Source: Candolleomyces eurysporus (Eukaryota > Basidiomycota > Agaricomycetes > Agaricales > Psathyrellaceae). Taken from it: a stretch of DNA of 64,000 nt. The position numbers were made by a program, and so were the translations under genes. The notes under the pieces were generated by a model. It saw only the letters and a program-made list of their open reading frames with translations. It made no database searches and was not told the origin of the DNA. Each line of letters opens with the position of its first letter. The first letter of the stretch is position 1. Shown one piece after another: positions 4,641-35,695 of the stretch. The stretch is from the NCBI GenBank assembly GCA_027579435.1, contig JANBPK010000038.1, forward strand, positions 22,319 to 86,318, written 5' to 3'.

Positions 4641-5415
4641 CAAGCCAGAAGCAGAGTGTCACGGTGGTGAGTGCCGTCGTCTTGAGGCTTCCAGTCAATC
4701 GCTACGGTACCGCACGTACCTGGAACCCTGAGTAATAATGTATATCTAGTACCGGTACAATACGCCCGCATGAGTATGTACCTCGCAACTACAAAGACTT
4801 GCTGAAGAGAACCCTCGTTATAGATAGGGCAATGAAGTTTTGTTCGCAACACTTAATGCCAAACTTGTTCTCTACGGTAGGCTTTTATTTGCTGTTGTAG
4901 ACTTTTGAAGGCGGCGGTAAGCTTGACCTATCGACGCGACGCGACCTGCCGGCTTTTCTCTGCGCACGATCTTCAACCGTCCCGTCTCTATGGGTCATAT
5001 TCGGACAATTGAGTTCTCTCCTTTGTCTTCTGAGTCACAGCCACCATGTCAGAACTTCTCCTGTGATTAGGTCATTGAAGGGCATCTCGGGCATCGATCC
5101 GAGAGGTGAATATGATACCATTGAAGCAATTTAAAGAGGATCGGCGACCGACCAACAGAAGTTCATTATTGGTGAAGGATTCTTTCTTTTATCCAAGGCC
5201 ACGAGAATAATCCAAAGTCTTTTCTTGCGCGGCCAGGTTGCGGCATCGTGTGTTATCGCAGAAGCGCCGGGCGCCCGGCAAAGTGTTTCCAAAAGCCCGT
5301 TTTGTCTCCGTACAGCCACCTCAATGCAGTTAATAACAGGGAAGACGGCTGGTCGTTCTTCCAACTTTGAGCCCCATCTCTATCTTCTGCTATCACAATC
5401 AGCGACACCGCAATC
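4641..5415 (+). promoter_or_regulatory. Upstream region of NLR gene A, conserved in gene B
   Basis: From about 4870 to the start codon this region aligns with the reverse complement of 35199-35695 upstream of gene B. Shared islands include the stretch near 4880 with TTTGCTGTTGTA (TTTGCTGCTGTA in B), the stretch at 5050-5090 with CTTCTCCTGTGATTAGG, and a perfect 14-bp palindrome GCCGGGCGCCCGGC at 5266-5279. No exon is evident upstream of the shared ATG at 5416. Confidence 0.55.
5266..5279. promoter_or_regulatory. 14-bp GC palindrome upstream of NLR gene A
   Basis: GCCGGGCGCCCGGC is a perfect palindrome 136 bp upstream of the start codon. Its central ten bases (CGGGCGCCCG) are also present upstream of gene B at 35361-35370, although flanking bases have diverged. 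Preservation of the symmetric core fits a dimeric protein-binding site, but only two copies are available. Confidence 0.35.
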
Positions 5416-8400
5416 ATGGGCGAAGCTTCGGAGCACGATTGTGATGACCCTCTCTTTACCATGTCTAAACCTTGCTGATGGCGGTCGTCTAGATTCTGTG
5501 GGTGCTTTTGCGGGGGCGAGCCACCTTGGAATCAAGAGTGTCAGTTTCCAATCCGCTGGGAAGGACATGAATGTCTACGAGAATTGCAACATCTCTGTCA
5601 CTACCGTTGCCGATGATACAGACGACAATGGTAGGCTCTCCAACTTTGCTTTCTCGCTAATCTGACAAGAGCTCTCATTTTCAATAGATATCGATTTATT
5701 ACGAAGAGTCGCCGACTGGTTGACAACGACCAGCTTTCGGAGCATTCATTCGGACGCTCTTGCTAAGAGGACTCCAGGCACAGGCCTTTGGTTCACGGAA
5801 ACCAATGAATATCGTCTTTGGACGCGAAATAACCTCAAGGTTTTATGGGGAACCGGGATGCGTGAGTGATTTAAAGCGACATTCTCCGAATGGCTGCTGA
5901 CCTCCTCGGGATTAATAGCGGGCGCTGGCAAGACAATTCTTTCGTTTGTATTTCGAATGCGTTTGTGATTCTACTCGCCTCTCACTATAAATTCAGGGCG
6001 CTCATCGCCGACCATCTCCAAAAAGAATTTTCCTCTCAGAAGCGAGTGCCTGTCATATTTGCCTATTGTCGGTACACGGAGAAATATCCCACCTCCCAAT
6101 TCCTTGCCGCATGGATTCGACAGCTGTTGGAATACGATCCAACAACCCTCCGGCATATCAGCGAAACGTTCGCTATCCATCAAAGGCAGGATACCTGGCC
6201 ATCGGAAGCGGAGCTGCATGAATTGCTCTCCACCATCTGTTCTGGGTTCGAGAAGGTCTATATTATCCTGGATGGCTTGGACGAAGCACAGGAAGACGTC
6301 AAGATACAGCTGCTCGAGGAAATCAACACTCTCCCATCCAACACTCGCACATTAATTATGTCGCGCCCTCTGAAATCATTCGAATGTCTGGTTCGTAGTG
6401 CTGTCTCCATCAATATCGAGGCTCGAAACGAAGATATAGAACTGTTCGTCGAGAAGAAAATTGCGCAAATGCCTAGACTTCAAACAATGCTTGCAGGGAA
6501 GGATGGTGAGAAGGAGCGCATTTGTAAAGCTATCAAGGAAAAGTCGGGTGGCATGTCGGTGGCTATATTTTCGATTCATGTGCACGGGTTACTCACCCGT
6601 GATGCCTGATTTTCTAGGTTCCTGGTCGCAAGCCTGCAACTTGAAGCATTGAAGGGTAGCATGAGCCCGAGGGCTTTGACAAATGCTCTCGAAACCCTTC
6701 CGACCAGCATCAACGATCTTTATAGGCACACCTTGAAGCGTATCGACGCCCAAAGCGAGCCAGAGGTCTTGTTAGCGAAGAGAGCAATCCTGTGGCTAGT
6801 ATATGCCCCCGTGCCATTGTCGACGAACCAGCTGCAGCACGCTTTGGCTACCAATCTCGACCTTGGGATCTTCGATGAAGATGACATCGTACGCGGAGAA
6901 TTCATTTTCGATGTTTGCTGCGGCCTCGTTTCCAGATCCTACGATTCGGCGTCTCCTTCTACACCCCTCAGACTCATTCGTAAGTGCCCATATTCGTGTT
7001 TTAATAACTTTAACATTATTGACTATGTTTAGATTATACTACCCATGATTTTCTCAAGGAAGCATGCTTGTCGTGGTTCCCTGCACCTCACACATTTTTG
7101 TCGTCCATCTGTGTGGTCTACCTATCTGCTCAACTCCACTACCGGAACTACCCAAATGGAGAGGATACCTTTCTTATCAATCCCAATCCCTTACGACCCT
7201 TCCTCACCTACGCTTACAATCACTGGGGCACCCACTCCCGACTCTCCAGTCAAGAAGCGGGGCTGTCGACTCATGTATCCCAATTTGTTTCGAGGCCTTT
7301 AGCCTACCCCTGGAAGTACGGTTCCTATTTCGATGAGCTCGGCTCTCACCACCTTGCCGCATTGTATGGCCTCACAGGTCTCTTGACGAGCATGTCACCC
7401 AGCTGCGGGGTCACTCCGAAGCAGCGATTCACTCTCCTCCATCTCGCTGCGATTGGTGGCCATGTCGACTCTGCCAAGATCGTCTTGGAAAGATGGCCTG
7501 AAACGTCGATCAGAGATCTCAGCCTTGATGGTCGAACCCCTCTCATGTTGGCTTCAGCGTTTAATCGTGAAGAAATGGTCAAATTCCTGCTGTCCATCGA
7601 CCCAGAAGACATTGAAACACTCAACGCAAGAGCGGCGTGCGGGTGCACTGCACTGGCTTCCGCTATCAACAGCGGTCACACCAAGATAGTTGAACTATTG
7701 GCATCATGCCAAGGTGTCCGCTCGGATGTTCAAACGTGTACACGTTCGCCACTGTCGTGGGCTGCCTCTCAAGGCCATACATCCCTTGTCCGACAACTCC
7801 TCTCTAACCCACAGATCGAGGTCAACATGCAACACCCTTTCACCGGATATACCGCCTTATGCTACGCATGTCGTCTAGGTCGCTCTGAAGTGGTTGAAAA
7901 CCTTCTTGCACGCAAAGAGGTTGATATTCACTTGGGCCCCATCTGCGGCTGTACCCCTCTTTTACTCGCAGCATCCACCAATCAGCTCACTATCATTGCA
8001 CTTCTTCTATCCAACCCTAATATCAACATTCACGCACGCTGCACGCACTCAGGGACAGCGCTGTCTGTTGCAAAAAATGATGCGTTGTTGAAACTTCTCC
8101 TATCACATGGACGGATTCTCGTAAATGCGAATGCCGACGATATCCATCTCTGCCTCAGCCTCGCCGCACGTTTAGGTCTTGAAGACACCTTCTCCAGACT
8201 AGTTCGCGACGCTCTCGAACCTGCAAGGTTACGAATGCAGCCGACAGTTCTGATTCAAGCGGCAAAGCATGGGCACACAGCAATTGTAGAGGTCGCTCTC
8301 CGATTCGTTGGTATCAATGCAGAGGATGATATGGGATGGACAGCACTTGATGCGGCCGCGGACGCAGGTCACAAACACATCGTTTCGCTCCTCCTTTCCC

Positions 8401-11036
8401 ACAAAGCTTCAGTTGTGCACGAACCTCGGGCCCTTAGCTTGCCAAAATGGCCGAAAGTCTGTGACTTCCCCAAGCTGGCTTTGGAACGCCAGACAACACT
8501 TGGTCTTGCGTTGGCCGTAGAGAGAAGTCATCGTGATGTTGTCGATGCTCTACTCTCTGTAATCGTGGATAATCATGGGGCTTCGGCAACACTATTTGCA
8601 GCATGTCGGAGTGGAAGGGATGCGGTGGTGCGGGGTCTGCTTTCACAGCCAGATATCAACGTCAATGTGGAAGATGAATACGGCTGGACACCTCTCGCTC
8701 ACGCAGCATGGAACAATCATCGAAGCATTTGCCATATGTTACTTGCCCATCCCGAAATTCAACTCTGCGCTGGAAAAGCTTCCCCCCTGGTGCGGGCAGC
8801 TTTTCGTGGTTACCATGACATCGTTCAAATGTTCCTCCAGCCAACGCATGGGGTTGATGTAAACGCGACCGAGGAGGGTTGGACGGTACTCGCGGCAGCA
8901 ACGTACAGTGGATCCACGCTATTAGTACGGACCCTCCTTGCGCGGGACGACGTTGATGTGAACCTTGGTAGACATGCACCACTCATTGTGGCAGTCTGCA
9001 AAGGCCATGCTGCAATTGTCAAGATCCTATTGACACATGGGCTCACCAACGTCAACATCCGAGACTCCAAAGACCGTCGGCAGCCTTGCGAGCCAACTGC
9101 ACTCTTTTTTGCATGTCGACGTGGGCCACAAGAGGTCGTTCAGGCACTGCTAAGCCACACAAATATTAGCATCAGCGTCAGAATCAGCCGGGAAAATGCT
9201 CATGTAGGCCATACAACTCAAGTCAACCCCACCGGGGATCACCCTCCGTTTCAATCCCTCGAGAAGCTCTGGTATGCCGATTCCCCTCCCATTCTCGATC
9301 CCGAAATCTACACCACCCCTTTACACATCGCTGCTCGTACGAAGGACTGGCATGAAATACTGCCGCTGTTGCTCGAGACAAAAGATCTTGACCCAAACAC
9401 ACTGAACGAGAAAGGCGAATCTGCTCTGCCGCTACTGTTGGACTACATTGGAGGTATCGGGAGGCTCACACTCATTCCAGGGGTATTGAAGCTGGTGACG
9501 TCACATTTCCTGGCATCATCCGATGCAATTCGAAAAGAGCCAGATCTACTCCGCAGAGCGGCACAGGCAGGCAGTATCGACGTGATCAAAGCGCTCTTGG
9601 AGCACTGCGACACCGTGACGAAGATCCCTCCTGCACTCCATGCAGCGACTTGCGCAGCGAATGCCGATATTGTCAGTCTCTTGCTTGGTGTACCCGGAAT
9701 CACCCCCAATAATGGGCTGGCTGCTGCTTGCCTTCGAGGATACCCTGTAATTGTCAAGCACTTCCTCGATCATCCCAGAATCGATCCCAATAATCTTACC
9801 AAGGCTGGATACACCCCACTAGCAGCCGCCTGCTATCGCGGCGAGGAAGAAATTGTTTCCTGGTTCCTCTCGAGAAAAGGGATCAAGGTCAATGCTGGCA
9901 AGTATCACCCGCTGATGATCGCAGTTCAGGTTGGGTGGGGACGTGTTGTAGCTCAGCTGATCGAAGGTTGCACAGACATCGATATCGATCAACATGCATA
10001 CAACCGAGGAGCATTATTGACGTGCTTTCAATCCTATCCCCCTTATCGCCCTCCTTCTCGCTGGTTTCGCTCAAAGGAGTGCTGGCTAAGTCAGAGTGCT
10101 CCCATGAACACTACTCCAATCACAGTCCTTTATGATCCCCTTCCGAGTCCTCTCAACTGTTTTGGTCGCCTCGCACCCAGGCGAACAGGCCCGTATGCTA
10201 TCGGCTTCTTCAATGGCCCTGTAGCCCGGAACAGATATTATGTCATGGCTAAAGACTCTGCCTTTGGAGAAGGAGATCCCATCCTTGTTTACTGTGTAAG
10301 GGCCGGCAATGTTGGAATGTCCAAGGCTGTCCTATCACACCGAGGTATCAAGATAAACGCCAAGGCCCGTTGCGGTTGCACGGCCCTTATTGTAGGGTCC
10401 GTCCTGCGACGGCACACCATCCTCGATCATATTATCGCTCGAGCCGACACCGACCCAACGATTCGCTGCCCGACCCATGGTACCGCGATCCTCGCTGCCG
10501 CACATCGATTGTACTTCGACACCGTCAACCAAATCATCTCGTCGCCCCTCCGCAGCAAATTGGACTTCCACGACGCTGCTGACTGCGGCTGTAACCTGTT
10601 CATTTGTGCAGCTAGGAGTGGGGACGAAGAGACATTCCTTTCCTTTCTCCCACTTACCAACTGGGAGGACTCCCCAAATGTCATCGATTGCAAGTTCGGC
10701 CGTACGGCCCTCCTCTGGGCTTCGTTTTATGGACAGGAGTCCATCGTGCGGCTCCTACTCTCCAAACCCAGTGTCGACTTGAATAATCGCGACAAAGATG
10801 GGAACACCGCATTGATTATGGCGGTGAATTCAGGACACGAGGAGGTGGTCAAGACGCTTTTAGCTTCCCCCAGCGTCAACATAAATGCCCGAAACAGGAG
10901 CGGGGACACGGCGTTGTCGCTGGCCATATGGTATGGGTATGAAAGGATTGTTCGCCTTGTCTTGGGTACGAAGGATGTGGATGTTAGTGGGCTTGAACAT
11001 CGAGGAAAAGAGATTTGGCCGTCATCAGACTTATGA
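5416..11036 (+). CDS. NACHT-ankyrin repeat NLR-like protein (copy A)
   Basis: Seven exons (5416-5440, 5493-5630, 5688-5861, 5919-5943, 5997-6554, 6618-6979, 7033-11036) give 1761 residues without a stop. The N-terminus is a short Gly/Asn-rich segment (VGAFAGASHLGI, then NVYENCNISV). A NACHT STAND ATPase follows: Walker A GMPGAGKT at about 111-118, split by an intron, Walker B VYIILDGLDEA near 215, and LIMSRP near 240. A winged-helix-like part (LETLPTSINDLYRHTLKRI, then LSTNQLQHALA) and HYTTHDFLKE near 430 come next. About 30 ankyrin repeats fill residues 500-1740. Fungal proteins of this architecture are counted as NLR-like receptors in non-self recognition and programmed cell death; the ligand here is unknown. 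Two donors are unusual (GTGATG at 5441, GTCGGT at 6555). A 1-nt insertion near 10990 relative to copy B changes the last 13 residues. Confidence 0.85.
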
Positions 11037-11195
11037 ATGTCGCTATTTTCTTCCAAATCTGCTGTATACTAGTTCACTCAATTTGCGCAATCATCTTAGC
11101 ACTTTCATCTCTACGTTCATTAGCATCTGATTCAGACCTTACGTGACCCAGGTGTCACGTCGGATAAACCGCTTCGAGGCCAGATTCATTGCGGT

Positions 11196-12060
11196 TAGTG
11201 TTGGGCAAGCATCCCAGCTCTCCTCATCCGATATAACGACGATTCAACTGTCCTCTGAGCTCCTCGTCACTCCTTCAGGCTCAGCGGTCAATTCAATCAC
11301 CTTTGCGGGCCCGGCGCTCTGTCGAACAGTTGTCTGACTTCCCGATGCGCAATGTTGGACCGAGTAAGGGAGAGCGTGGTGATTTGAATGGACGGTAATG
11401 TTCAGTGTGGTAACTTTGGACGAGATGGATTTGAGCTTCGGAGCTTCGCATCATGGCAGGCGGTCCTTTACCGAACCGCGGATGCTAACCAAGTCGAGCA
11501 CTAATGATTCAGGGCGTGGGATGCCTTTGAGGATCTTGATAGCGGACACTGAGCGGAAGACCAGCGTAGAGGGCTTGAATCCAGAGTGGCCCATCGATCC
11601 GAGTGCTCCCCCCTAACTATTGAGCTGCAACTTCCAAGGAGGGTCCCGGTTGAGAGACGTTAATTTTCAATAGAGATGCTGTATATCCTTTCGCATGGTT
11701 TAAAGATCTCAGGCTTTTCAAGGATATCTCGGTTAAGGATCGACTCGAGAAATGTCTGATTCGAGTCGTCCTCCGCCACGGTAAAGATACTTAAGAGATT
11801 GCGTCGTGGAGTGTCCGTCACTGTCCGTATTATAATAAGCTACCGATTCAATCTCATACCTATAGTCGTTCGCGGAAAGTGAGGGGAAGAGATTGAGGTG
11901 TGAAGTGACCTAGACCTGGTATCGAATGGCACCTGCTTCGCACGTTGTAATTTAAGCTACTTCTGCTTGTAGTTCACAGTGACAGGACGGTATAATTTCT
12001 GACTTCGACATGACTAATCTGACGTCGTTGCTTTACCATATCGATCGCACACGAGTCCTA
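11196..12060. other. Intergenic between NLR gene A and the carboxypeptidase gene
   Basis: This is the shared 3' side of two convergent genes. Open frames are short, in conflict, and without motifs. No match to the corresponding flank of gene B beyond about 11195. Confidence 0.5.
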
Positions 12061-13997
12061 TCAAAGATCTACGCCTTTCAACCAGCGATTGACCAAGTGC
12101 AAAGATTCCACTGGCTTATCATAGGGGACCTATCGAGACAAATTAACGCCATAAAACCAAAATAATCAGGTTGTTTCGTACCATATGCCCTGCGCCATCG
12201 ATGGTCGCAAAGGTTAGACCTCCAGATCCACGAGTCCGCCCAGCCCTCTTCCCATCAACGTACCAGTCCCTCAAGGGCTGGCTGCTAAAATTCTGTTGCC
12301 CGCTCCACTCCAAATCCAGCGTCCATCGCTCGTTTCCAACGTGGTTGCAGATCCAGTCGTTAGCCCCAACATAAATGAGCGCCCTCACCCCGCGCTCCAG
12401 CAAAGCTGATATGTAGAGGTAGGTAGGACGGAATTCGTCCATGTTAAGGAAGAATTCGTTGTTGAGTTCCCAGGAGACTGAGGAAAAGTTTGACTTGATC
12501 GAAGAGTCAACTCCAATTTTCTTGCGAACATCTGGACGGTCGAGGTACTCGGAGATGTGTCTCCAAAAAACATGAGTGTTCAGTCCGGGAGTAAATTTGG
12601 GAAAACAACTTACTTGGTGACGGGATAGCAGAATGTTTCGGTAATTTCCCCCTCGCAGTCGCGGCTTATGTCGTAGGGATTCTTACCTAGAAAGTTCGTC
12701 AGATGAGGCCGCTTTTTATGTAAATATCGCCATACCTGATAATGAGAAAGGAGTGGAGATTTCATTCCCGCAGAATGCGAGCGCAGCTTGGCAGCTGAAC
12801 TCGTCAAAGATATCGACGCACGACTCCTTAAGCCCTTTCTTGCACCGGGGGACCTACCACCGCCAATTGTAAGTATCAAAGTAGAGTTGATAGAGGAGAA
12901 TGAACTCAACCGCTTGTTTCATCCGAACACAGGTTGTGATGTCCAAGACCGGTGGAGCCGATACAGGCGTGCACGCCATATCGTAGTAGGAAGTAGCCAT
13001 AGTGTAGAAATCGGTCAAGCCGTTCCCAATCATGACGGACGCCAGATTAATAGGCGTCAAACCGGCCTCTTCAAGCTTCTGGTTCTGGTCGTACACATAT
13101 GACGCAAATACCGGAATGTACCTTCCGCCGTACGATTCCCCAGCCATGTGGAATGGCCTTCCTTTGAACTTGGTAAAGTGCTCGAAGAAGACATGCACAA
13201 AGGCAGCGATATCCTTCGCCGCCTCTTCCGTAGTTCCCTGGGATACACTATCAAGAGAGATATCCAGAAAGTACAGGTTCAGTACAGACTTACCACATGC
13301 TCTCCGTACTCCGCGTAGGAGAAACCCACGCTGACGGGCTGGTCAATGAAGAAGATGTTTGCTCGCGAGTTCCAGGACTCCGGATGGAATTTCGGTCCAT
13401 TCTCATCCAAAACTCTGCACGGGCCAAGCTCCATGAAAAGACCCAACGACGACGAGGCGCCTGGACCTGGAGCGGTAGTTCAACAAAGGTAAGTAAGGAT
13501 TCAATGTTGAATCCACAGCCGATACAACGAACCTCCGTTCGTCCACAGGATCACGTCGTCCTTATCTGGGTCATTCCTGCTTTCGAAGAAATAGAAGAAC
13601 AGATGTCTGGCTTCAACATCAATGTAGCCTGTATACGAACTAACCCTATCTGAGTTTCCAAGCCACCCCAATCCAGAAAAGGGTACCTACTTGACACTCC
13701 CGTCACAGAACTTGGTCTTTTTGATCCGAACACCATGACGAGGGAAGGCTGGATGTTTCAACGTCGTATACTGAGTCTCTGAGAGGATGTGCAAGTCCTC
13801 CAACGGCGTGAACAACCCAGAGTCATAGTCTGCTGCTGCGCAATGCAGTTAAGACTTCGCTTAAGCTCTAAATTTGTTGTACCTCACATACCTGTCATCA
13901 CGAGTTGACTCGGACCTTCGTAGCCATCGTCTCTTGCACTCCATGCCCAGGTAAGTACGCACGCCTTCAAAAGGAGCAGAAATACGGGGACTTTCAT
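12061..13997 (-). CDS. Serine carboxypeptidase, peptidase family S10 (carboxypeptidase Y type)
   Basis: The start ATG (13995-13997) opens a clear signal peptide ([19 protein letters not shown]). Downstream exons read in order: [131 protein letters not shown] and IDGAGHM. The last exon, after a GTACGA..ATAG intron, encodes [19 protein letters not shown] and ends at 12061. The family triad is visible: Ser in GESYGG, Asp in GANDW, His in GAGHM. The oxyanion-hole motif NGGPG is present, although the usual Cys after it is Ala. S10 enzymes remove C-terminal residues in the vacuole or outside the cell. The gene is co-oriented with the GH47 gene 341 bp upstream. A broken copy lies at 4275-4640. Confidence 0.88.
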
Positions 13998-14337
13998 GAT
14001 AGAGGTTCAAAGCAACCTACATCCGCGCGCAGCGCGATCTTCTTTTTCTACGACGCAATGCCGAAGTCCGGCAAGCACATGGAAGTTCTTGTCGCCGTGG
14101 TGATGGCAGACTTGCAGACTTGATTCATCAGTCCATGAGGTCAAGTCAAGCCTGGGACCCGATCTAATAATAGTCAATCCTACTCGTCTAATCGTCGGTT
14201 CCTACTTCCTGTAGCCGTCCATTCTTCTCTTCTCATCCCATCTCTTCGATATATACTTGGACTCGAGCAATCCCTTGAAAGCAGACGGTATAATTTATGC
14301 AACTAGCCACGACGTCAATCTACACTCAGCAGACCTA

Positions 14338-16883
14338 CTACGAAAACCCGGTCCGTATTGAGGGTGAAAATATAGGCAAGGGGTGCGCTTCAGTGTTGAA
14401 CACATATTCTGTTCGATCAGCAGACAAGGTTTGCGTTAGCGAACAGGAAAGGAAGACGGGCGAGAGTGGAGAAAAAACTCACGGTCTAGCGGAAGGACAC
14501 TCGAATCCGAGAAGAGGAGGTACAGATACTTGAGTGTCTCGCTCTAAAACAAGAGAGAGAAAAAGCACATCAGCAATCTTCCACGCAACGCGCAACCAGG
14601 GAGAAATCCCAAGAACAATTCGTGAGAAGGGACCCACCAGGAAGAACGTCTCCATCTTATCCTCCTTCTCGCTCTCCTTATTCATCACATCCAAAATCGA
14701 CGCATAGCCTCCACTCTCGATTTTGCAATTCCGCTCGATAGCTTGGAAGATCTTCCATCCATAATCACGGTAACGCTGGTCGCCCGTTAACCTGAACGCG
14801 ATGAAGAGCGATTCGACGGTCTCGGGTCGGAGGATGTACCGCGCGTCGTAGGAGGGTGGGTTACCTGGGAATCTGCAAGGTGTTGTAATTAGACTGTGTC
14901 AAGGGTAGGAAGAGAAGGGCGGTCCGTGGGACTTACTCCATTCCTTTCACATACCAGTCATGCCCTGCGTTCTCACTCCAATCTCTTCCGTCGTCTTCGA
15001 TATAAAAGTGGGCGATCTCGGGGGAGAGTCCGCTGTACCAAGCGTCAGTCAATTGGCTAAAGACGCAAAAACAAGAGGGGGTGCGGGAGAGCGAAAAACA
15101 AAGAGGGAAGGGAGGAATGGCCAGAAACCGGAGGACGAGGGGGAGAATAGAGGAAGAAGGCGACTAAAAACCACTCACGTAGGCGAATCGTATGTATCCA
15201 TACACGTCTCGATCAATTCATACCCCAACGCCCAGTCACTCTTGCCAATATCGCTCAACTCGTCCGCATGTGGAGGTACAGACACCTTATCCACAAACGC
15301 TCGTGAACGTACGGCACCAAGCATAAGTGAGCCTCCGAGGAAACAGACGAGATGATCTTGTTTGGGGTAGAGTCGCCAATTTAATCCACCTTCAGCCTGC
15401 CGTTCGGGGATTAACTCGAAAGTGTAGATATTGCCTTTGTTGACACCTTTTCGGATGAGAGTAGTACGAGCTGCATCCATCGATTCTTGGTACATCTGGC
15501 GGTATACCTCCTCGGTTCGGTCCTGCAGCAGCGTATAGCACGGTGAATAGGAAACGGATAATCAGACGTACGGTTTGAAGATACTGTTTCCTGTGGGGCG
15601 TCAGAGAGAAGATGTGCGTCTAGAGAGACGACGACGTACAGTAGGTACTCGTAGTATGAGTCGCCCCGGGAACCCAGTCGGATATCGGACATCATGAACT
15701 GCCCGTTTTGCGCACTACATCATAGGTGTGAGGTTTGGATGTATGAAGAGAAACGAAGGACGCACCCAATGTAAATCGGCGCCAGTTGCATCTCAGTCTT
15801 AGCGTCCTTGATCACCTTCATGACCTACACAACCATCAGCGAGCGAAAGCCTAACCCAAGCCAAACCAACTCACCTTCTCAGCTTTGTACCAATACTCCT
15901 CATTGTCCGTCAAATAACTCAAGTACCTAAATTCGAGCTGAAGGGTCGCAGCCTCGGCCGTACTAACCATCCACTGATTATACTCCTCCCCAACACCCTT
16001 GCGCTGCTTCAAGTTGACCATCGGCAGCGGCAACCCCGTCGGCGTCTCAAACGCCGCCAACAGCCTATCCGCCAAATCCACCGCCCTCTGCAAAAACACG
16101 GGGTCCTCGTCCGAGAGGTGGTACGCGGACAGCAGGCCCCCAAGCACGCGGATGGTAGTTTCGAACGTGTTGAACTTGCCGTCCTGGTCGAACGAGAGTG
16201 CGGCGGGCGAGGCGATCCAGGCGCGGGCGCGGGTGTAGTACTCGGTGAGGCCCATGAGCTGCATGGTGTCGAGGGTGTCGATGATGAAGTAGCCTATCCC
16301 GCCTGAGGAGGTGAGGTTGGAGCCTTTGCGCGCGATGGGGTGGTACTCGTCCGCGCCCATCGCGTCTCGTTCTGCGGATGCCCCATACCCGTATTTGATA
16401 AGTACGTCATTTACACGAGGCGGCAGGGTGGTTGGGTGGGGAGGCACTGACCGTAGGCTTCCCAAGCGTGCTAGAGGTAATTGGCATTGGTGGGGGGTCG
16501 AAGATAGGCTATTTTAAAGTTACTCACTCTGAAAGCAGCGACGATTGCATCCCGTTTAGGCTCATCGGCCGTATAGTTTGTCTGGATTCGCGAATCTTTC
16601 GCGGGGATGGCTTGCCATTGGGGTGGGCCGTAGAGCCCTGGACCAAGGAACTAATTCATGCATGTAAGCCCTTCATTCTCCCTGATAGCATCTGAGAACG
16701 CACCCATAAACCGACACAAGCCGTCGTCGCCGCCACCAACAGCCATCTCACCACCGGACTCGACCGTCCAAATTTTGGTTGTTTGGCCCCGCGGTCTTCA
16801 TCCCCAGTTCGGTCGGCGTATTGAAGCTGGCCTTCGTCACCTGTTAGAGTTGTTGTCCGTTTGCGCAAGTTGGTGTCCGACAT
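14338..16883 (-). CDS. Mannosyl-oligosaccharide 1,2-alpha-mannosidase, glycoside hydrolase family 47
   Basis: ATG at 16881-16883 starts a type II membrane protein: cytosolic, Arg/Lys-rich tail (MSDTNLRKRTTT) and one membrane helix (WLLVAATTACVGLWV, about residues 46-60). Family signatures appear in order over about ten exons: GGIGYFIIDTLDTMQLMGL, FETTIRVLGGLLSAYHLS, HLVCFLGGSLMLGA, LSPEIAHFY, YILRPETVESLFIAFRLTG, ETFFLSETLKYLYLLFSDS and YVFNTEAHPLPIF. The last exon follows an intron ending ATCGAACAG and stops at TAG (14338-14340). GH47 enzymes trim alpha-1,2-mannose from N-glycans in the ER or Golgi; the acidic residues in these motifs are those that bind calcium and act in catalysis in the family. 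Some exon ends in the first 400 bp are approximate. It diverges from the Galpha gene. Confidence 0.9.
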
Positions 16884-23400: not shown

Positions 23401-23576
23401 GGCCCCAGCTGACCCTGCCGTCCGTTTGTTGTCTAGACTCTACTGCTCCCACCATCCTCATCAGTCTGGCCAAGATCGTGCTCACTCTTCTTCGAGTTTC
23501 GGGCGTCTATCGAAGAGGGGTCTGTAGGTTTTTGAATAGCAATACCTGGAATAGGAGGACATATACTCGTCGCAGG
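20460..23576. other. 3.1-kb gene-poor, pyrimidine-rich region
   Basis: Long T/C-rich stretches and three isolated N bases (20508, 21919, 22520) fill this interval. Open frames on both strands are compositional and share no motif. Part is probably the long 3' UTR of Galpha. A microsatellite of ACGAAA units lies at about 20764-20790, and GAATG/GGAT-type degenerate repeats occur near 21546-21590. Confidence 0.5.
20764..20790 (+). repeat. (ACGAAA)n microsatellite
   Basis: About four tandem copies of the hexamer ACGAAA are visible in the pyrimidine/purine-skewed region downstream of the Galpha gene. Confidence 0.8.
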
Positions 23577-24650: not shown

Positions 24651-25102
24651 CGTACGTACAAGGCTTGGTATGTTCTCTTCTTTTTGTCGATCTCCTGTTT
24701 TCCCCGACGTTGTTACGTTGGCTGCTAATTCATTCCAATCTGTAGTGACTCGCTAATCTGATCGTCTGCGGAATATACTTCACCTGCGTGTTATCTCCCA
24801 CTGCAAGAACTCATGACGGGTAGATATCTATCTGCCTGCTAAGATGACTCGAGAACAGCAACAGTGTCAGAGTTGAGAGCAATTCACGCAGATACAGCAT
24901 ACATGACAGTTTTGACTCGGCGCTCATCGCAGGATTTTGAGCGGGTGTACTCATTGATGTTTGTCAGTCGCCTCTTTCCCAAGATCGCCAGTATCGGCAT
25001 GTTGTCGCACCAACGAGATCCCTATCTATCTCCCTGGTTGCCTCCTCCCCTCTCATTCATTGACATTGTCTCACAGCGCGACGCAGCGACAGCGAACGAA
25101 AG
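24651..25102. promoter_or_regulatory. Intergenic / promoter of the glutaminase gene
   Basis: This 450-bp stretch contains the 3' end of the hydrolase transcript and the upstream region of the glutaminase A gene, with a pyrimidine-rich patch near 25020-25060. No gene is seen. Confidence 0.45.
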
Positions 25103-28100
25103 ATGCAGTTCCCGTCGTCGCGCTTCGCAAGGGCTCCCTCATCGACAACACTGAAGACATTCTTTACTTCTTTCTTTTTCTTTCTGCCGTTCTTAGAAAT
25201 ACTATTATTATTATGCTCGGTGCAGTCAGTTAGCGCCCAAGGCACTCTATCTGCCATACCGCGTACGATCCCTGTGGTCCATAGGTCTCCCTATTTCGGG
25301 GTATGGACGACGACGGAGGATACGAGTGTGGATCCTACTGTAGCTGGTACGGGGTTGATAAGCTGGGGCTGGAGGGTACGTTCGTCCTGCTTTCATCTTC
25401 ATATATCTCTTTCTTCGAACTTAGTCGCGTCTCTTTGTCTGACGGGTTTTCCTCTGTAGCCATTGAATTGGACAGGACTCGTTCGGGTGGACGGGCAAAT
25501 GTACCAATGGCTAGGCAACGATACGGGTGTCGCGCCGGCGAGGACGGTCAACACCTACCTGACGGCGACGAGGACGATGTTTAGGATGGAAGCTGGACCC
25601 GTCAGTTTGAATGTGTCGTTTCTGAGTCCTGTGGAGGTGCGTTTTCTCTCTCTTCCTCTTGCTATGTCTTCTTTTGAGACTGAACCGGCGATCTGGTGGG
25701 CTAGCCAACGAACTTGGTCCGACAGTCGTTCCCATTCGCCTATGTCTATGTGGATGTGAACGCAAACGATGGGCAGGCGCATTCGGTGCAGTTGTATACG
25801 GACGTTTCGGCTTGTACGTTCGTTTATCTCTTTCTTACTCCTCCAATCCTCATGATCAAACTAATCGTATCCCTCAAACCTACGTAGCTCTAGTATCCTC
25901 GCGAAATGATACGATGGAGTGGAACACCACTCGGACTTCGACTTCAATATACCACGACATACGACGAAGATCGGGGTTAGCTTTGGATACATATGATGTC
26001 GCCGAGAATGCGAATCTGTTTTATGCGACTCTGGAGGTACGCTCTTGGCTTCGCATAACCGACTCATGATAATCTGATTTGGTTATCCGTATGGTAGGGC
26101 ACGGGTGTCACTCGACAGACGGGTCCATTCTCCGAAGTCCGCCAAACGTTCACCTCCAACGGGGCTCTAAACAACTCTGAAGACACCGTCTTCCGCAACG
26201 CCTTGGTCGCGTAAGCATCATCTCCCTTTTTCCCCACCTGGTCGTACACATCCTGACCCATTGGAACCCCTTCCGTGACAGTCCCCCTGTCCTTGCATTC
26301 GCAGTCGACCTAGGAACGGTACAATCGACCAGCTCGCCTGTCGTGTGGGCTATAGGACACGTCAGGGAAAACTTATTGACGGCGTACGGGGGCTCGTTTG
26401 GCAGTGAGAGACGGGCGTCCTACTTTTGGTCGCAGTATGACGAGATCGGCTCAGCAGTAGGTCGCTTTTCCACCCCAATACCTCATCCTCGCAAGACTGC
26501 TCAAACTCACGTTGACCTATGATAGATTGACGCTTTCCTCGCTGACTTCCGGGATGCCAAAACCAGAGCGGAGCAGCTAGACGAGAAGTTGAGAGAAGAA
26601 GCTAGCGCGGTGTCGACGGAATACGCAGATTTGGTGTCGTTGTCATTGCGGCAGACTATGGGTTCTATCGAGATCACCCTACCGCAACGGTCTAGTACGC
26701 GGAATTCGTGGAATATGTCTGATATACAGGCTTTCGTGAGGGATAATGGGGTGTCTAAGTGAGTACCCGATTTCTTTCAAGTTCCTTATTTTGGCGTCGA
26801 TCGTGGGTGTTGATATATTGGTGACTTTTATAGACGAGCGAATCCTGTGGAGGTTATCTATGCAGCTATGCCTGCGCTTTTGTATCTCAACCCGAGCATC
26901 TTGTTCTATTTGCTCAAACCCCTGCTCAACTTCCAGTCTTCGCAGAGGTACCAGAATGCGTATGCGTCTCCTGACCTCGGTACGTCAAATCTCTTTTGTT
27001 GTCAAGTTCCCGCCGATTAACGTGGTTTGAATGCACCCAGGCAACGACTATCTATCCGCCACTGGGAATAATACCAATACCAAGCCTCTGGGGGTAGAAC
27101 GTCCGTATATGGTTTTTAAGCCTTTTAAACTCACAAAGGACTCAATTATGTTCGAATAGATTCGGGGAATATGCTGATCATGGCGGCTGCATACGGTATG
27201 CAGACGAAAGATTGGGCTTCTCTCAACCCATACGTTAGTTACCATCAGATAATCTCGCTCTCATCCTCCCTAATATATCGTTCTTTCTTATAGGCCGGCC
27301 TTTTCAAGACATGGGCTGACTTTCTTGTCACGGAATCCCTTCATACAAAACAGCAGTAAGCTAACCAGAAGTGCTTCAAGACTCGCAGGATGACTGATTG
27401 ACGATCTCTCTCTTCAAGGACGTCGGCCGACGGTTTGACAAGCGAAAACCAGTCTAACCTTGCACTCAAAGGTATAGTGGGAGTTTACGCCATGTCGAAG
27501 ATCAGGGAGGCATTAGGTGCTAATGGGGAGGAGAAGTATTTCTCCGTAAGTAGCCTGCTCTTTCTCTGTGCTCCGAGCTCACCCCTCTCTATCCGGCATG
27601 AAAATGTTCAGGACCAGGCAATCTCGCTTGCCAAACAATGGGAACAACTTGCTGTCGTCGATGATCATATATCTTCTTTGTATGGTCAACCCTCGACTTG
27701 GGGATTGACTTACAATGTGTTTGCTGCCCAACTCATCGCTCCGGATTTGATTACGAAAAAGGTTGGTATGCCTCTGCTTCAACAAGCTCCTACCGCGCTT
27801 TGGGACGATGATATTGATTTTCTATTTAGGTTTTCAGAGACCAATCAGACTTTTATGACAAGCAAGCAGCGTCTGGTATGTGTTCCTTGCCTATTGTCGC
27901 GTCCGTTGATGTTCACCTGGAATCCAAGCTGCACCCAATGGTCTCCCATACGATACAGCAGATCCGCATGTGGTCAAGTCTCGTACGTATATATGTCCTC
28001 CAAAAGCTACGGGCAGAAAGCTCACCCATTTTCTATTCTCCAACCTCAATGCACGACTCGTAGATTGGACCATGTTCACAGCAGCAAGCGCCACCACCCC

Positions 28101-29008
28101 GTCCACAAGAGATAAACTTGTCAACTTCATTCATTTCCGGACATTCCGGAAAGCAACGGCGGCACAGTTTAGTACGACCTATAGTGCGGATACTGGTGCA
28201 ACTCTTCCATTAGGTGGACGGTCGAGTCCAGCCCAGGGTGCTATGTTCGCGCTCTTGGCTTCTGAGTGAGTCGTCCAGCCGTCAAACATACATACACACG
28301 GCCGTTGCTGACAGCTCTTATAGGACGTTCAACGGAGGTTCTGCCTCCTCAGGGCAATTTGGCGCATCTAAAAACATCGGCGGTATCGTTGGAGGGGTTA
28401 TCGGAGGACTAGCCGCAATAATACTCCTCTCCGTTGGAGGGTTCTTCGTTTGGAGGCGGCGCAAAAACAACCAAGAGATGAAGAAGAAGGTGGAGATCGA
28501 TGGAAACTACTCCCCGACCACTTCGTTCTCCGCTCCGGAAAGACGGACTTACGCCTCGAGTCGGAACTATACAGCGAGCGCCTACACCCATATCCCATCC
28601 GAGCTCATTCCAATGCCGTTCACAGGCCTGGTATCTGGTGGGGATCATAATAACGATAACGCCAATTCCCCCACAACGAACTCGGGAGGGCGTCCCAGTC
28701 CTCCGGTGAGCGGCAAGCTCGCTCGGTATGTGGTGGCCAACCCACCTCACGCTCCTCCTACGTCTCCCTCCCTGCGCTCAGATGGGTCATCCTCGGGAGC
28801 CCAGGACCATCATTCGTATTTGCCTCCACCGTCCGGCACAAGTTCAAGTCAGAATCTTCAGCAGGAGGTGGAAGAGTTGAGGAGGGAGGTTGGTTTCTTG
28901 AGAGCGCAGCAGCAGACTCTGTCATCGCAACCGCCACGACCACCAGCTACGACGGTGTCCTTCGGTTCGCCGCCTAGCGAGCCTCCTCCTTTGTATACCT
29001 CGAGTTAA
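25103..29008 (+). CDS. gtaA: Glutaminase A (GtaA-type), membrane anchored
   Basis: About 15 exons are joined by short introns. The N-terminus is a long hydrophobic signal/anchor (FFTSFFFFLPFLEILLLLCS, about residues 20-40). Domain landmarks follow family order: ISWGW then LNWTGLVRVDGQMYQWLG (DUF5127-like part), VVWAIGHVRENLLTAYGGS, SNGVSK-type linker, NMLIMAAAYGMQTKDWASL, AGLFKTWADFLVTESLHT, NLALKGIVGVYAMSKI and STWGLTYNVFAAQLIAPDL (DUF4965/DUF1793-like part). A single C-terminal membrane span follows (GGIVGGVIGGLAAIILL, then FFVWRRRKNNQEM), and a Ser/Pro-rich cytosolic tail with a short coiled-coil-like segment ends at 29008. GtaA enzymes release ammonia from glutamine outside the cell. Exon ends near 27870-28080 (GLPYDTADPHVVKS then WTMFTAAS) are inferred. 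N-glycosylation sequons are frequent, as expected for an exposed domain. Confidence 0.82.
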
Positions 29009-29355
29009 GAACGGTTTTTAATTATTACATTATCCTATTGACTTTCTCGATCATTTCCTGACAAATGCATTTGCCAATGGTGTGTAAAATGAGTTCCCGA
29101 GGACAATCATAAAATATCATATTGATGAGGAGAGCTCGTATGCTTGCTAAATACTCACCCTATCCGTTGGAAGGTCTCATCATTGTAAAAGAACAGCAAG
29201 CCTAGTCCCGTCTTTTGTCGCAACGAACCTGACCGAAGCGGGTTGTTCGACACGGCTGGGGACACATAGGGTCTGAATCAGACAGCGATGGACGGAGACA
29301 CAACTCGAAAACGTTGATATAATCGCCCACATCAAGCAAACAGATATACAGGAGA
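29009..29355. other. Convergent 3' intergenic between glutaminase A and NLR gene B
   Basis: AT-rich 3' flanks of two convergent genes. The last part, from about 29215, aligns with the 3' flank of NLR gene A and is the end of the duplication arm. Confidence 0.6.
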
Positions 29356-32300
29356 CTAGGATAAATATCGATATTCATAAGTATAATGACGTCCAATCCT
29401 CTTGCCCTCGATCTTCAGGCCCCTAACATCCACATCCTTCCTAGCCAAGAGAAGGCGAATAATCCTCTCATACCCATACCACACTGCTAGTGACAACGCC
29501 GTGTCCCCGTTCCCATTTCTGGCATTTATGTTGACACCTGGGGAAGCCAAAATCGACCTGACTACTTCCTCGTGTCCAGAGTTCACTGCGAGAATCAACG
29601 CGTTATTCCCATCCTTGTCGCGGTAATTCGAGTTGATACTGGGGTTGGAGAGTAGGAGCCGCACAATGGACTCCTGTCCATGAAATGAAGCCCAGAGGAG
29701 CGCCGTACGGCCGAACTTGCAATCTACGACATTTGGGGAGTTCTCCCAATTGGTAAGTGGGAGGAAGGAACGGAGTGTCTCTTCATCTCCACTTCTGGCT
29801 GCACATATGAACAAGTTGCACCCGCACGCGGCAGTGTCTTGGAAAGACAGCTGGCCGCAGAGAGGCGACGACATGATTTTGTTGACGGTGTCGAAGTACA
29901 ACTGATGTGCGGCTGCGAGGATTGCGGTACCATGGGTCGGGCAGCGAATCGTCGGGTCGGTGTCGGGTCGAGCAAGAATGAGATCTAGGATGGTATGTCG
30001 TCGGAGGAAGGACCCTACAATTAGGGCTGTACAACCGCAACGGCCCTGGGCGTTAACCTTGATATCATGGTGGGACAGGATAGTTCTGAACGTTCCAATA
30101 AATCCGGCCCTCACGCAGTAAACAAGGATGGGATCTCCTTCTCCATAGGTAACGCGTTTCATCATTCCCAAAAGGTCCTTCTGGTCAGCAGGGCCATTCA
30201 AGAGACCGACAGCGTAGGGGCCCGCTCGCCTGGGTAGGAGGCGACCGAAGCAGTTGGAAGGAGTGAGCTCATGAAGAACTATTTTCGTGGCAGCGTTCAT
30301 GTAAGCGCTCTCCTGTAGCCAGCATTCCCTTTCGGAAAACGGACGATAGCGAGGATGAAAGAGAGGAGAAAAGCACGCCCTGAATGCTTTTTGACTGTAG
30401 GAATATTGATTGACATCGATGTCTGCGCAATCTTTGATCAGCTGAACTACAACACGTCCCCGCCCAGCTTGAACGGCGACCATCAGCGGGTGATACTTGC
30501 CAGCATTGACGTTGATCCCTGTTGTCGAGAGGAGCCAGGAAATGATTGGTTGTGAACCGCGATAGCAGGCCGCTGCTAACGCGGTGTATCCATTTTCAGT
30601 CGGAATATTGGGATCGATCCTGGGATGATCAAGGAATCGCTTGACAATTATAGGGTCTCCTCGAAGGCAAGCAGCGGCTAGAGCGGATTCCCCACCATTG
30701 GGGTCGACTCCGGGTGCATCAAGCAGGAGACTGATGACATCAGCACGCCCCGTGCGGGACGCTGCTGTGAGTGCAGGAGCAAGATCCATCGTGCTGTCAC
30801 AGTGCTCCAAGAGCGCTTTGACTACGTCAACGTTCCCTACTTGTGCTGCTTTCCGGAGTAGAGCTGGCTCTTTCCGAATGGAATTGGGTGATGCTACGGA
30901 AAGCGATGCCACTAGCTTCAATACCCCTGGAAAGGGTGCAATTCTGGAGCTCCGTCCGATGTCATCTGGGTCCAACATCAACGACAGAGCAGATTCGCCT
31001 CTGTCGTTCAGTGTGTTTGGGTCAAGATCCTTCGTCTCCAGCAACAGCGGCAATATTCTATACCAATCTTTAGCATGAGCTGCGACGTGCAAAGGGGTGC
31101 TGTAGATATCGTGCTCGGGAATGGCCCAGAAGGACTGGTGATACCAGAGCTGCTCGGGGGATAGAGAGGGGCGAAATGGAAGGCGACTACCAGCAGATTT
31201 AACTCGGATTGGAAGGTCTACTTGAGCACTGCCTCGGCCAAGTCTAATGGTGACATTAATATTTGGGTGGGATAACAGTGCCTGGACGACCTCGGGTGGT
31301 CCACGTTCACACGCAAAAAAGAGCGCAGTTGGCCCACAAGGCTGGCCGGGCCCTCCGGAGTCCTGAATATTGACGTTGATGCGACGATCTGCCAATAGTG
31401 TCTTGACAATTGCAGTGTGGCCTCCGCAGACTGCCACAATGAGTGGGGCATGCCTACCAAGGTTCACGTCAACGTCGTCCCGCGCAAGGAGAGTTCGTAC
31501 TAACGGCATGGATCCACTGCATGACGCTGCCGAGAGTACCGTCCATCCCCCCTCGATCGCATTTGCATCCAGCCCATAAGTCGGGTGAATGAGCATCTGA
31601 GCAATTTCATGGTTGCCGCGAAAAGCTGCGCGCACCAGGGGGGAAGCTTTTCCAGCGCAGGGTTGAACCTTGGGATGGGCGAGCAACATCTGGCAGATAC
31701 TTCGGTGGTTGTTCCACGCTGCATGAGCGAGAGGTGTCCAGCCGCGTGTGTCTTCCGTATTGACATCGATATCCGGTTCATATGCCGGCTGAAGAAGCAA
31801 CTGCACGATTTCGCGGCAGCCACGAGAAGCTGCTAACATCAAGGGGGAGACCTTTCCAGCCCGTAACTGAATTTTGGGATGGGCAAGTAGCATATGGCAA
31901 ATACTTCTATGATTGCTGCATGCTGCACGCGCGAGAGGCGTCTGGCCGAGGTCATCCTCCACGTTGACATTGATATCCGGTTGTAGAAGGAGAGCCTGCA
32001 CCACTGCATCCCTTCCACTCTGACATGCTGCAAGTAGAGTTGCTGAGTCCCCGTGATTGTTCCTGATCACGGGTAGGAGAGTGTCGACAACGTCCTGATG
32101 TCTGTTCCCTGCAGCCAATAAAAGACTGCGCGGCATCCGGCGGTCCAAAACCAACTTGGGGAGCGGTGGATTCAGGGCCCGAAGTCCGGGCATAAGTGAA
32201 GCTTTGTGAGAGAGGAGAAGCGAAACGGTGTGCGTGTGGCCTGCGTTTGCGGCAGTATCAAGTGCTGTCCACCCCATAGCGTCCTTTGCATTGATGTCGA

Positions 32301-35198
32301 CAAATCGGAGAGCAAGCTCTACGATTGCTGTGTGGCCACGCCTTGCAGCGTCAATAAGAACCCTCGACTGCATCTTTATCCTTGGGGGTTCGGGACAACC
32401 GTGAACTAGTTTGGAGAAGGTCTCCTCGAGACCCAAACGTGCGGCGAGTTCGAGGCAGAGATCGATATCGTTGGCGGTAGCATTGGCGAGAATCCGTCCA
32501 TGTGATAGGAGAAGTTTTAACAAGGTGTCATTTTTCGCAACCGAGAGTGCTGTTCCCGAAACCATACAGCGTGCGTGAATGTTGATTTTAGGGTTGGATA
32601 GAAGCAGTGCAATGATGGTGAGCTGGTTGGTGGACGCTGCAAGTAAAAGAGGGGTACAGCCACAACGGGGCCCTAAGTGTAAATCGACCTCCTCGCGTGA
32701 AAGAAGGGCTTCAACGGCTTCGCAACGACCTAGACGAGATGCGTAGCATAGGGCGGTATATCCGGTGAAGGAGTGTTGCGCATTTACATCGATTTCGGGG
32801 TTGGAGAGGAGTTGTCGAACGAGGGATATATGGCCTTCAGAGGCGGCCCACGACAGTGGCGAACGTGTACACGTTTGAACGTTCGCCTGGACACCGGGGC
32901 ATGATGCCAATAATTCGACTATCTTGACGTGACCTCTGTTGATAGCGGAAGCCAGTGCAGAGCACCCGCATGCAGCTCTTGCGTTGAGTGTTTCTATGTC
33001 TTCTGGATCGATGGACAGCAGGAATTTAACCATCTCTTCACGATCGAATGCTGAGGCTAACATGAGAGGGGTTCGACCATCAAGACTGCGATCTCTGACG
33101 GACATTTCTGGCCACTTCTCTAAAACAATCTTGGCAGAATTGACATGGCCACCGATTGCAGCGAGATGGAGGACAGTGAAACGATGCTTTGGAGTGGCCC
33201 CGCAGCTGGGCGACATGTCCGTCAAGAGATCGGTGAGGCCATACAACGCAGCAAGGTGGTGAGAGCCGAGCTGATCGGAATAGGGGCCATCGAGCCAGGG
33301 GTAGGGCAAAGGTCTTGAAACAAATTGGGATACGTGAGGTGACAGCCCCTTCTCTTGACCAGAAAGTCGGGAGTGCGTGCCCCAGTGCCTGTAAGCATAG
33401 TTGAAGACGGGTCGCGGACTCTTCGACGTGCCAAACCCTTCAAAGGCAACGTCTCCGGTTGGGGAATTGCGGTACCGGAGTTGGGCAGATAGGTAGACAA
33501 CACAGATAGACGACAGATATGTGTGAGGTGCAGGGAACCACGACAGGCATGCTTCCTTGAGAAAGTCATGGGCGGTATAATCTAAACATGGTCTTTAATA
33601 TCGACATGGTCTGCACACCACCGTAGGCACTTACGAATGAGTCTGAGGGGTGTAGAAGGAGAGGATCTCGAGACAAGGCCACAGCAAGCATCGAAAATGA
33701 ATTCTCCGGATGTGATGTCATCTTCATCGAAGGTCCCAAGGTCGAGATTGGTGGCTAAAGCATGCTGCAGCTGGTTCATTGGCAATGGTTCGAGGGTATG
33801 TACCAGCCATACGATCGTTCGCTTCGCTAAAAGGACCTCTGCATCGCTTTGGGCAGTGATGCGCTTCAACGTGTGCTCATAAAGATCGTTGATGGTCGTA
33901 GGAAGAGTTTCGAGAGCGTTCATCAACGCCCGGGGGGTCATGCTACCCTTCAATGCTTCGATTTGCAGGCTTGCAACCAGAAACCTGGAAATTAGGAATC
34001 GTGGGTGAGTCTACCATGTACACTAACCGACGATTGTAGCCACCTACATGCCACCTGACTTTTTCTTGATAGCTTCACAAATGCGGCGCTTCTCACTATC
34101 CTTCTTAGCAAGCATCGTCTGCAGCCGGGGCATCTGCGCGATTTTCTTCTCGACAAACAGCTCTATGTCTTCGTTTCGAGCCTCGACATCGATGTGGGCA
34201 GCACCACGAACCAGACATTCGAATGATTTCATAGGGCGCGACATGATTAATGTGCGAGTGTTTGGTGGAAGAGTGTTGATTCCCTCGAGCAGCCGTATCT
34301 TGACTTCTTCCTGTGCTTCGTCCAACCCATCCAATATGATATACACCTTCTTGAACCTAGTACATATGGTGGACAGCAACTCATACAGCTCTGCCTCCGA
34401 TGGCCAAGTATCTTGCCTTTGATGGATAGCGAACGTTTCGCTGATATGCCGGAGGGTTGCTGGATCGTATTCCAACAGCTGTCGGATCCATGCCGCAAGG
34501 AATTGAGAGGTGGGATGTTTCTCCGTGTACCGACAGTAGGCGAATATGACAGGCACTCGCTTCTGAGACGAAAATTCCTTTTGGAGGTGGTCAACGATGA
34601 ATGCTCTGAATTCGTAGTCAAAGACGAGTAGCATCGAAAAGACATTAGAAACACGAACGAAAGGATCGTCTTGCCAGCGCCCGCTAGAAACCCAGAATTA
34701 GATCAACAACCGTTCGGGGCATGACACTTGGATAACTCACGCATCCCGGTCCCCCATAAGATCTTGACGTTGTTTCGCGTCCAAAGATGATATTCGCTGG
34801 TCTGTGTGAACCAAAGGCCTGTGCCTGGGGTCCTCTTCGCAAGCGCATCCGAATGGATGTTCCGGAAGCTGGTCGTTGTCAACCAGTCGGCGACTCTTCG
34901 TAATAGCTCGATATCTATTCAAAAATAGGTGCACTTGTCAGATTAGCAAGAACGGAGAGAAGTTGGAGACTTTACCACTATCCTCCGTCTCACCGCCACC
35001 GGCATTCACAGAGATATTACAGTTCTCGTATACGTTCATGTTCACGTCCTTCCCAGCGGATTGGATGCTGACGTTCTTCATTCCAAACTTGCTTGCACCT
35101 GCAAAAGCGCCCACAGAATCTAGAGCACTTCTATGAGCAAAATTAAGGCATTTCAACGAGAGGGTCGTCTTACAATCGTGCTCGGAAGGTTCGTCCAT
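29356..35198 (-). CDS. NACHT-ankyrin repeat NLR-like protein (copy B)
   Basis: Seven exons on the minus strand (35174-35198, 34976-35119, 34741-34914, 34659-34683, 34048-34605, 33635-33984, 29356-33581) give 1833 residues without a stop. Exon borders match copy A one for one, and here every donor is ordinary (GTAAGA, GTAAAG, GTGAGT, GTTCGT, GTAGGT, GTAAGT). Walker A (GAGKT), Walker B (VYIILDGLDEA), LIMSRP and the winged-helix-like segment LETLPTTINDLYEHTLKRI are kept. The ankyrin part has one 204-bp unit more than A (spacing of the matching motif 31674 to 31878). The C-terminus ends IGRHYTYEYRYLS; copy A has lost this frame by a 1-nt insertion. Both copies are open, so both may work as receptors with diverged sensing repeats. 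Confidence 0.87.
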
Positions 35199-35695
35199 GA
35201 TTGCGATGACACTGGTTGTGGTAGCAGAAACAGAGACGGGGTTCGGTACTCAAAGTCGACAGAACAATTGCGACAATCAACAATCGGTCATCTCCGGCGT
35301 TAACAGCATCGAAGTGGCTGTACTTTTACAAAACGGGCCTTTGGAAACACTTCAGTCCGTCGGGCGCCCGGCGGTTCTGTGATAACACGATGCAACCTTG
35401 CTGCACGAAACGAAGGGCGTTGAGTTAGTTTCATGGACTAGGAAAAGTCCTTCCCCAATAGTGAACTGTTGTTGATCGGTCAGCGGTCCTTGCTGAATCG
35501 CTTCACTAGTAGGTAGGGTTATCGGATCCAACGCTCAGACCCATGTCCGAGATGCCCTCCAATGACACAATCACAGGAGAAATTCTGACGTGCGTGGCTG
35601 TTACTAGGGAGTAAAGAACCACGCGCGGGTTTGGTAGCCTTAGTTTACCATTGCCTTCAAACGTATACAGCAGCAAATACACGAAAGCCTAGGCT
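35199..35695 (-). promoter_or_regulatory. Promoter region of NLR gene B, conserved with gene A
   Basis: Aligned islands with the region upstream of gene A include the palindromic core CGGGCGCCCG at 35361-35370, a TTTCTCCTGTGATTGTG stretch near 35585 and a TTTGCTGCTGTA stretch near 35670. These are the parts most likely to be kept by function. Confidence 0.5.

Follow-up and report, generated by a model that had tools for sequence, protein, structure and literature searches.

Fungal NOD-like receptor (NLR) genes of the NACHT-ankyrin type combine a NACHT domain with an array of ankyrin repeats, and display lineage-specific expansion and birth-and-death evolution, as described by Dyrka et al. (2014; PMC4986451). 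The same study describes a class of highly conserved, reshuffling repeats among fungal NLRs. NACHT-ANK is also among the agaricomycete architectures with short amyloid-like N-termini, according to PMC9815663. The window analyzed in this work is a stretch of 64,000 nucleotides (nt) of Candolleomyces eurysporus (contig C907, positions 22319–86318; the assembly is 65.85 Mb in 1296 contigs). It carries two genes of this type, termed A and B, that lie in opposite orientation around an 18 kb interval. They share the domain order and the lineage-specific multiplication of the described genes. A and B probably represent old and still intact copies from a NACHT-ankyrin family specific to the lineage (NLR-like, of the signal transduction ATPases with numerous domains, STAND) that spread by segmental duplication together with the gene at the 3′ side of the receptor and that is held under purifying selection.

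The original prediction described inverted NACHT-ankyrin arms with seven matching exons and outer limits at 4870 and 35695. This is borne out. Self-comparison of the window by blastn pairs positions 5033–11074 with 35605–29339 in opposite orientation at 78.6%–80.4% identity, so that the arms are about 80% identical; the two component matches are 31820–35605 with 8809–5033 (minus, 80.4%, E = 0) and 29345–31776 with 11068–8649 (minus, 78.6%, E = 0). Weaker distal homology begins at approximately position 4884 in arm A and 35696 in arm B, when a third family copy (N3, below) is used as a ruler. The hand-built models of A and B have the same seven-exon layout with GT-AG introns. Both reading frames are open over more than 1750 codons, as had been proposed, with translated sequences of 1761 amino acids (aa) for A and 1833 aa for B and no internal stop codon. 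A 25-base exon encodes part of the P-loop in both models, and the reading across this exon is consistent with a protein from C. aberdarensis (P0005). The window contains nine single Ns (positions 3442, 4389, 19122, 20508, 21919, 22520, 39287, 49456 and 52362), none of which is within arm A or arm B.

The NLR-like identity of the two genes also holds. Pfam analysis of A residues 1–600 gives NPHP3_N at 105.3 bits and NACHT at 29.6 bits (cut-off 26.7), and the last exon displays Ank_2 at 412.6 bits in A and 451.2 bits in B. The NACHT part of B was judged by alignment to A (dN 0.04, both Walker motifs present). Walker A (GAGKT) and Walker B (LDGLDE) are kept in all five copies of the family. A NACHT profile search of the genome scored 86 of 1132 candidate places, and all 86 matched. 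A and B are both missing from this set; the count misses genes of their kind because their domain is split over exons.

Purifying selection clearly acts on both copies on average, judging from codon-level divergence, and the suggestion that both genes are under selection is thus upheld. Nonsynonymous (dN) and synonymous (dS) divergence were calculated by the method of Nei-Gojobori for each partition. For A and B the whole gene has dN 0.146 and dS 0.475, a ratio of 0.31. The NACHT part (dN 0.040, dS 0.364, ratio 0.11) and the ankyrin part (dN 0.171, dS 0.487, ratio 0.35) are each well below 1; the ratio is 0.22 in the region after NACHT and 0.33 in the linker. The highest value of any partition over the ten pairs of copies is 0.89, found in the N-terminal 57 residues of N2 and N3, where there are few changes. 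A and B differ at 27.6% of third, 15.2% of first and 12.9% of second codon positions, and their identity is 64%–81% in introns and 80%–92% in exons. Of 12 indels in coding sequence, 11 have a length divisible by three, against one of 17 in introns and flanks. The single coding exception is probably the reason why the C-terminal residues of A are unlike those in B, N1, N2 and N3. B and N3 have in common an ankyrin insertion of 68 residues.

The inverted pair of the original prediction stands, and it belongs to a family of which five full-length members were found. The three besides A and B, termed N1, N2 and N3, are on contig C1027. N1 is open throughout. Alignment shows five frame interruptions in N2 and N3, four of which are a single N after a homopolymer and one a longer homopolymer, and because the breaks are N placeholders or a homopolymer these two genes are not called pseudogenes. 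More distant relatives are found on contigs C1003, C692, C494 and elsewhere; on C1003 seven further NLR N-terminal matches, 38%–45% identical, are spread over 18–83 kb.

A and B do not form a pair of nearest relatives, and the copy closest to B is N3. The dS is 0.20 for B and N3, 0.35 for N1 and N2, and 0.46–0.48 for the remaining eight pairs, A thus being about equidistant from the other four copies. Informative sites with two states number 195 for B+N3, 120 for N1+N2, 69 for A+N2, 54 for A+N1, 26 for A+N3, 16 for A+B and 10–15 for each of the other four splits. The placement of A varies with the comparison. In a nine-row protein tree built from residues 1–950, in which three of the six inner branches are unresolved, B groups with N3 (100/100) and A joins them (95/97). 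By blastn over the first 3.8–3.9 kb of A, the identity is 83.5% to N2, 82.2% to N1, 80.8% to N3 and 80.4% to B.

The 3′ neighbors group the copies as well. A, N1 and N2 are followed by a copy of an S10 serine carboxypeptidase gene, and B and N3 by a copy of the glutaminase gene GtaA. These shared neighbors indicate that receptor and neighbor were duplicated as units. Positions 28438–35696 of the window, i.e. the end of GtaA and arm B, match C1027 at 89.7% over 7.3 kb, and the remainder of GtaA matches at 83%–88%. The GtaA copy beside N3 (C1027:199256–201984) is broken, with 810 of 2835 coding bases missing.

A protein search with the first 900 residues of A (proteins longer than about 1575 aa were outside the candidates) gave 204 matches. 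Among the 120 listed, EST38_g10741 and EST38_g11573 of C. aberdarensis share 83% and 82% identity with A in their NLR parts. The C. aberdarensis models are partial or fused; that of EST38_g10741 is fused to a glutamyl-tRNA synthetase (GluRS) and has a near-neighbor tag of the S10 gene EST38_g10743, the entries of both giving 30942 bp for the longest contig. This is like the case of N2, which adjoins its S10 gene and a GluRS gene at C1027:171.5–173.1 kb. C1008 carries another GluRS-like gene, and no GluRS match was found in the 84 kb of C907 compared. Going by locus tags, C. aberdarensis has the same GluRS-NLR-S10 order as C1027; therefore C1027 is probably the place where the NLR+S10 unit has been conserved, and A+S10 in the window a relocated copy. 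Exon-wise matches above 100 bits to the C. aberdarensis S10 sequence are 87%–95% for the C1027 copies and 84%–93% for the window copy. B+GtaA would have been copied in the opposite direction, from the window to C1027. A+S10 diverged from its C1027 counterparts as long ago as A split from B; this is therefore a matter of history and not of recent movement.

The original prediction proposed further that the arms could recombine, so that the 18 kb interval might invert or repeats might be converted. Inverted arms of 6.2–6.4 kb do exist, and on C1027 a copy of gene X, an arrestin-like gene, lies upstream of a B-like NLR with its GtaA copy, which is the order at one end of an inverted interval. However, the arms are only about 80% identical, and additional copies of X are located on C907, C620 and C600. 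Exchange was sought by windowed distances, longest shared runs (1000 shuffles), clustered-site segments (nine contrasts, 2000 shuffles, uncorrected P values) and a site-by-site comparison of the distal arms. The longest run shared by A and B is nine sites and is matched in 499 of 1000 shuffles, i.e. there is no excess tract. Clustered A+B sites are also absent (P 0.72 and 0.87), and the nearest relative of B, N3, sits on C1027 beside a separate GtaA copy. Sites at which N3 equals B or equals A number 23:4 in window positions 4860–4959, 12:4 in 4960–5059, 12:11 in 5060–5159 (undecided), and then 17:3 and on. N3 is thus B-like up to the distal end and a breakpoint is most simply placed outside the arm, in C1027:192397–192615. 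No A-B hybrid arm is found among the five copies. Inversion of the whole A-B block is possible, and nothing in this genome points to a crossover within the arms; an active inverted-repeat pair is improbable on these data. Exchange does seem to occur within the family, among A, N1 and N2, and none is seen between the two arms. In A residues 791–1161, A+N2 sites outnumber N1+N2 sites 35:13 (0 of 2000 shuffles), and in residues 766–1052, A+N1 sites outnumber N1+N2 sites 19:7 (P 0.0005). This suggests that N1 and N2, which lie close together on C1027, were homogenized outside ankyrin residues 791–1161, or that A and N2 exchanged sequence inside them. The other contrasts give P 0.002 for B+N1 (four sites), 0.039 for A+N3, 0.06 for B+N2, and 0.28 and 0.35 for A+N1 and A+N2 against each other. 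The shared runs of the remaining pairs were reached in 888 of 1000 shuffles for A-N1, 650 for A-N3, 82 for B-N3, 57 for B-N1, 31 for N1-N2, 25 for N1-N3, 22 for A-N2 and none for B-N2 and N2-N3. The B-N2, N2-N3, B-N1 and N1-N3 runs were rejected as conversion; they are located at A residues 1747–1756, in the tail where A alone deviates. A rather unlikely elaboration is that two distant NLR loci swapped modules of receptor and neighbor both ways, A+S10 moving from the GluRS locus to the window and B+GtaA to C1027 beside X, with later conversion among the S10-flanked copies. The junction of X and NLR, present on both contigs, may then be a preferred breakpoint, or the trace of an old inversion of the whole block just outside the arms.

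C907 and C1027 could instead represent a single NLR locus whose two haplotypes in the dikaryon have diverged strongly, a balanced polymorphism. The expected number of RPB2-type genes is three. A search of the assembly gives seven rows, two genes among them each being broken into two pieces; one gene of the three is present once and two are present twice (C788/C992 and C1176/C1010, 94.8% and 98.0% identical). The assembly therefore seems partly diploid, with parts of both nuclei, and the 89.7% identity of the B and N3 regions would suit alleles. The divergence of B and N3 however exceeds that of both allelic test pairs, and the stretch from the GH47 alpha-mannosidase to the G-protein alpha subunit gene has no second copy except a weak 93-base match. 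C1027 has two NLR+S10 units and GluRS, and C907 has one unit; with the bases lacking from the C1027 GtaA, haplotype divergence is a live rival that accounts less well for the gene content, and is considered unlikely. If the two contigs were allelic, this would bear on allorecognition. An assembly artefact or a pseudogene in one of the arms is barely credible: single N placeholders do come after homopolymers in two C1027 copies, but the arms differ from each other at about 20% of sites and in their flanks, contain no Ns and are both open. Spread by segmental duplication under purifying selection is thus preferred, and several points weigh against it. One is the partly diploid assembly. Another is that the sequence does not group A with N1 and N2: its dS to B and N3 is the same as to those two, and it joins B and N3 in the tree; its ties to N1 and N2 are limited to the S10 flank, part of the ankyrin array and a blastn identity that is slightly higher. 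Both A and N3 are preceded by gene X with the stretch upstream of it (734–3833 and C1027:189.3–192.4 kb, respectively), which a simple story of two units does not predict. The direction of movement depends on one other species through locus tags, and in a cruder count against the C. aberdarensis S10 the N2-linked copy (79.3%) is no closer than the window copy (79.6%), the N1-linked copy being at 85.0%. Pairwise dN/dS leaves room for positive selection at a few sites.

In all five copies the N-terminus is about 50 aa long and shows by eye the pattern FAGAS...AG(K/N)(D/N), which looks like the amyloid-like motifs of agaricomycete NLRs (PMC9815663). No Pfam match is found upstream of A residue 85. 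A search of this genome for a separate partner protein with the N-terminal motif found none, all six matches being the five genes and one 5′ fragment. The genes also differ from the Podospora ANK genes studied in PMC4986451, as they show neither high internal repeat conservation nor an excess of change on the binding face. The best ungapped self-identity over 100 aa is only 0.31–0.45 in the five copies, and repeats of at least 100 aa with more than 85% identity are absent.

Diversifying selection on the ankyrin binding face was considered and rejected. The binding face was taken, from position classes presumed to apply as in designed ankyrin proteins, as positions 1, 2, 3, 5, 13, 14 and 33. 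Over five of the ten pairs and 16 gapless repeats of A, dN/dS is 0.34–0.63 at these positions, 0.35–0.49 at other surface positions and 0.20–0.27 at structural positions. The value of 0.63 comes from B-N3 alone, and the binding face is no more variable than the rest of the surface.

Segmental duplication would have carried each receptor along with its neighbor, and the copies would then have diverged under purifying selection, with fewer constraints on the ankyrin array than on NACHT. The opposite orientation of the A+S10 and B+GtaA units would account for the inverted layout. By analogy with other fungal NLRs (PMC9815663; PMC12881547), the ankyrin array most likely senses a ligand, upon which NACHT would bind and hydrolyze ATP and oligomerize, and the short N-terminus would relay the signal by recruiting or templating an effector. 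A role in immunity or allorecognition may be proposed on the same grounds. The locus illustrates, down to exon models and flanking genes, how NLR-like genes multiply in agaric mushrooms alongside an unrelated neighbor. The receptor stays intact over a long time (dS near 0.5), and conservation is far stronger in NACHT than in the ankyrin array.

Table 1. Positions of the receptor genes, their relatives and neighboring features (window coordinates unless a contig is given)
Feature	Position	Strand	Remarks
Arm A	4884..11075	+	5′ flank, NLR-like gene, short 3′ flank; 6.2 kb
Arm B	29339..35696	-	5′ flank, NLR-like gene, short 3′ flank; 6.4 kb
Gene A, NACHT-ankyrin	5416..11036	+	7 exons: 5416-5440, 5493-5630, 5688-5861, 5919-5943, 5997-6554, 6618-6979, 7033-11036
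Gene B, NACHT-ankyrin	29356..35198	-	7 exons: 35198-35174, 35119-34976, 34914-34741, 34683-34659, 34605-34048, 33984-33635, 33581-29356
N1	C1027:157.5-151.8 kb	-	full-length; open throughout
N2	C1027:169.7-163.6 kb	-	full-length; frame interrupted by placeholders/homopolymer
N3	C1027:192.7-199.0 kb	+	full-length; frame interrupted by placeholders/homopolymer
Family fragments	C1027:160.6-161.1 and 182.5-183.2 kb; about 1 kb on C1141		
A+S10 unit	5414..14015		two counterparts, C1027:149440-157490 and 161329-169696
B+GtaA unit	25048..35696		counterpart C1027:192616-201984
Gene X, arrestin-like	1070..3641	+	768 aa, 5-exon model; Arrestin_N/C Pfam below cut-off
S10 serine carboxypeptidase	12061..13997	-	500 aa model, exon 3 start uncertain; Peptidase_S10 Pfam
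GH47 alpha-mannosidase	14479..16913	-	approximate limits; Pfam
G-protein alpha subunit	18660..20000	+	approximate limits; Pfam
Alpha/beta-hydrolase-like gene	23900..24650	+	approximate limits; by eye
Glutaminase GtaA	25103..29008	+	17 exons, 944 aa; Pfam on single exon
Repeated open reading frame	40494-41306, 48062-48859, 49857-50624, 57297-57965	+, +, -, +	

Five genes had been named in the interval. S10, GH47, G-alpha and GtaA are supported by Pfam on single exons; the hydrolase is not, as its exon at 24231–24647 has no Pfam match and shows a GYSHG-like motif by eye only. GH47 and G-alpha are single copy in the assembly by DNA search. The annotated C. eurysporus glutaminase fragment H1R20_g512 has a sequence that traverses the GtaA exons of the window, as judged by eye. 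Gene X is present in two copies on C907 and also on C620, C600 and C1027.

The window S10 sequence deviates at conserved sites from three aligned relatives, with GGPGASS for GGPGCSS and DQPVSVG for DQPIGVG; by eye its catalytic motifs appear kept. This suggests relaxed evolution following relocation.

A repeated block is located at window positions 38600–58000. It contains four copies of an open reading frame of 223–271 aa without a Pfam match, one pair of which is inverted and 90.8% identical over 0.78 kb. The open reading frame lies beside a repeated multi-exon gene resembling one for a membrane protein, and stretches related to the block are found at C1027:205–217 kb. At positions 37766–38565 there is a 0.8 kb element with 33-base terminal inverted repeats (94%), which is 99% identical to C1027:202094–202889 and has weaker copies on other contigs. 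It looks like a small DNA transposon that was recently active.

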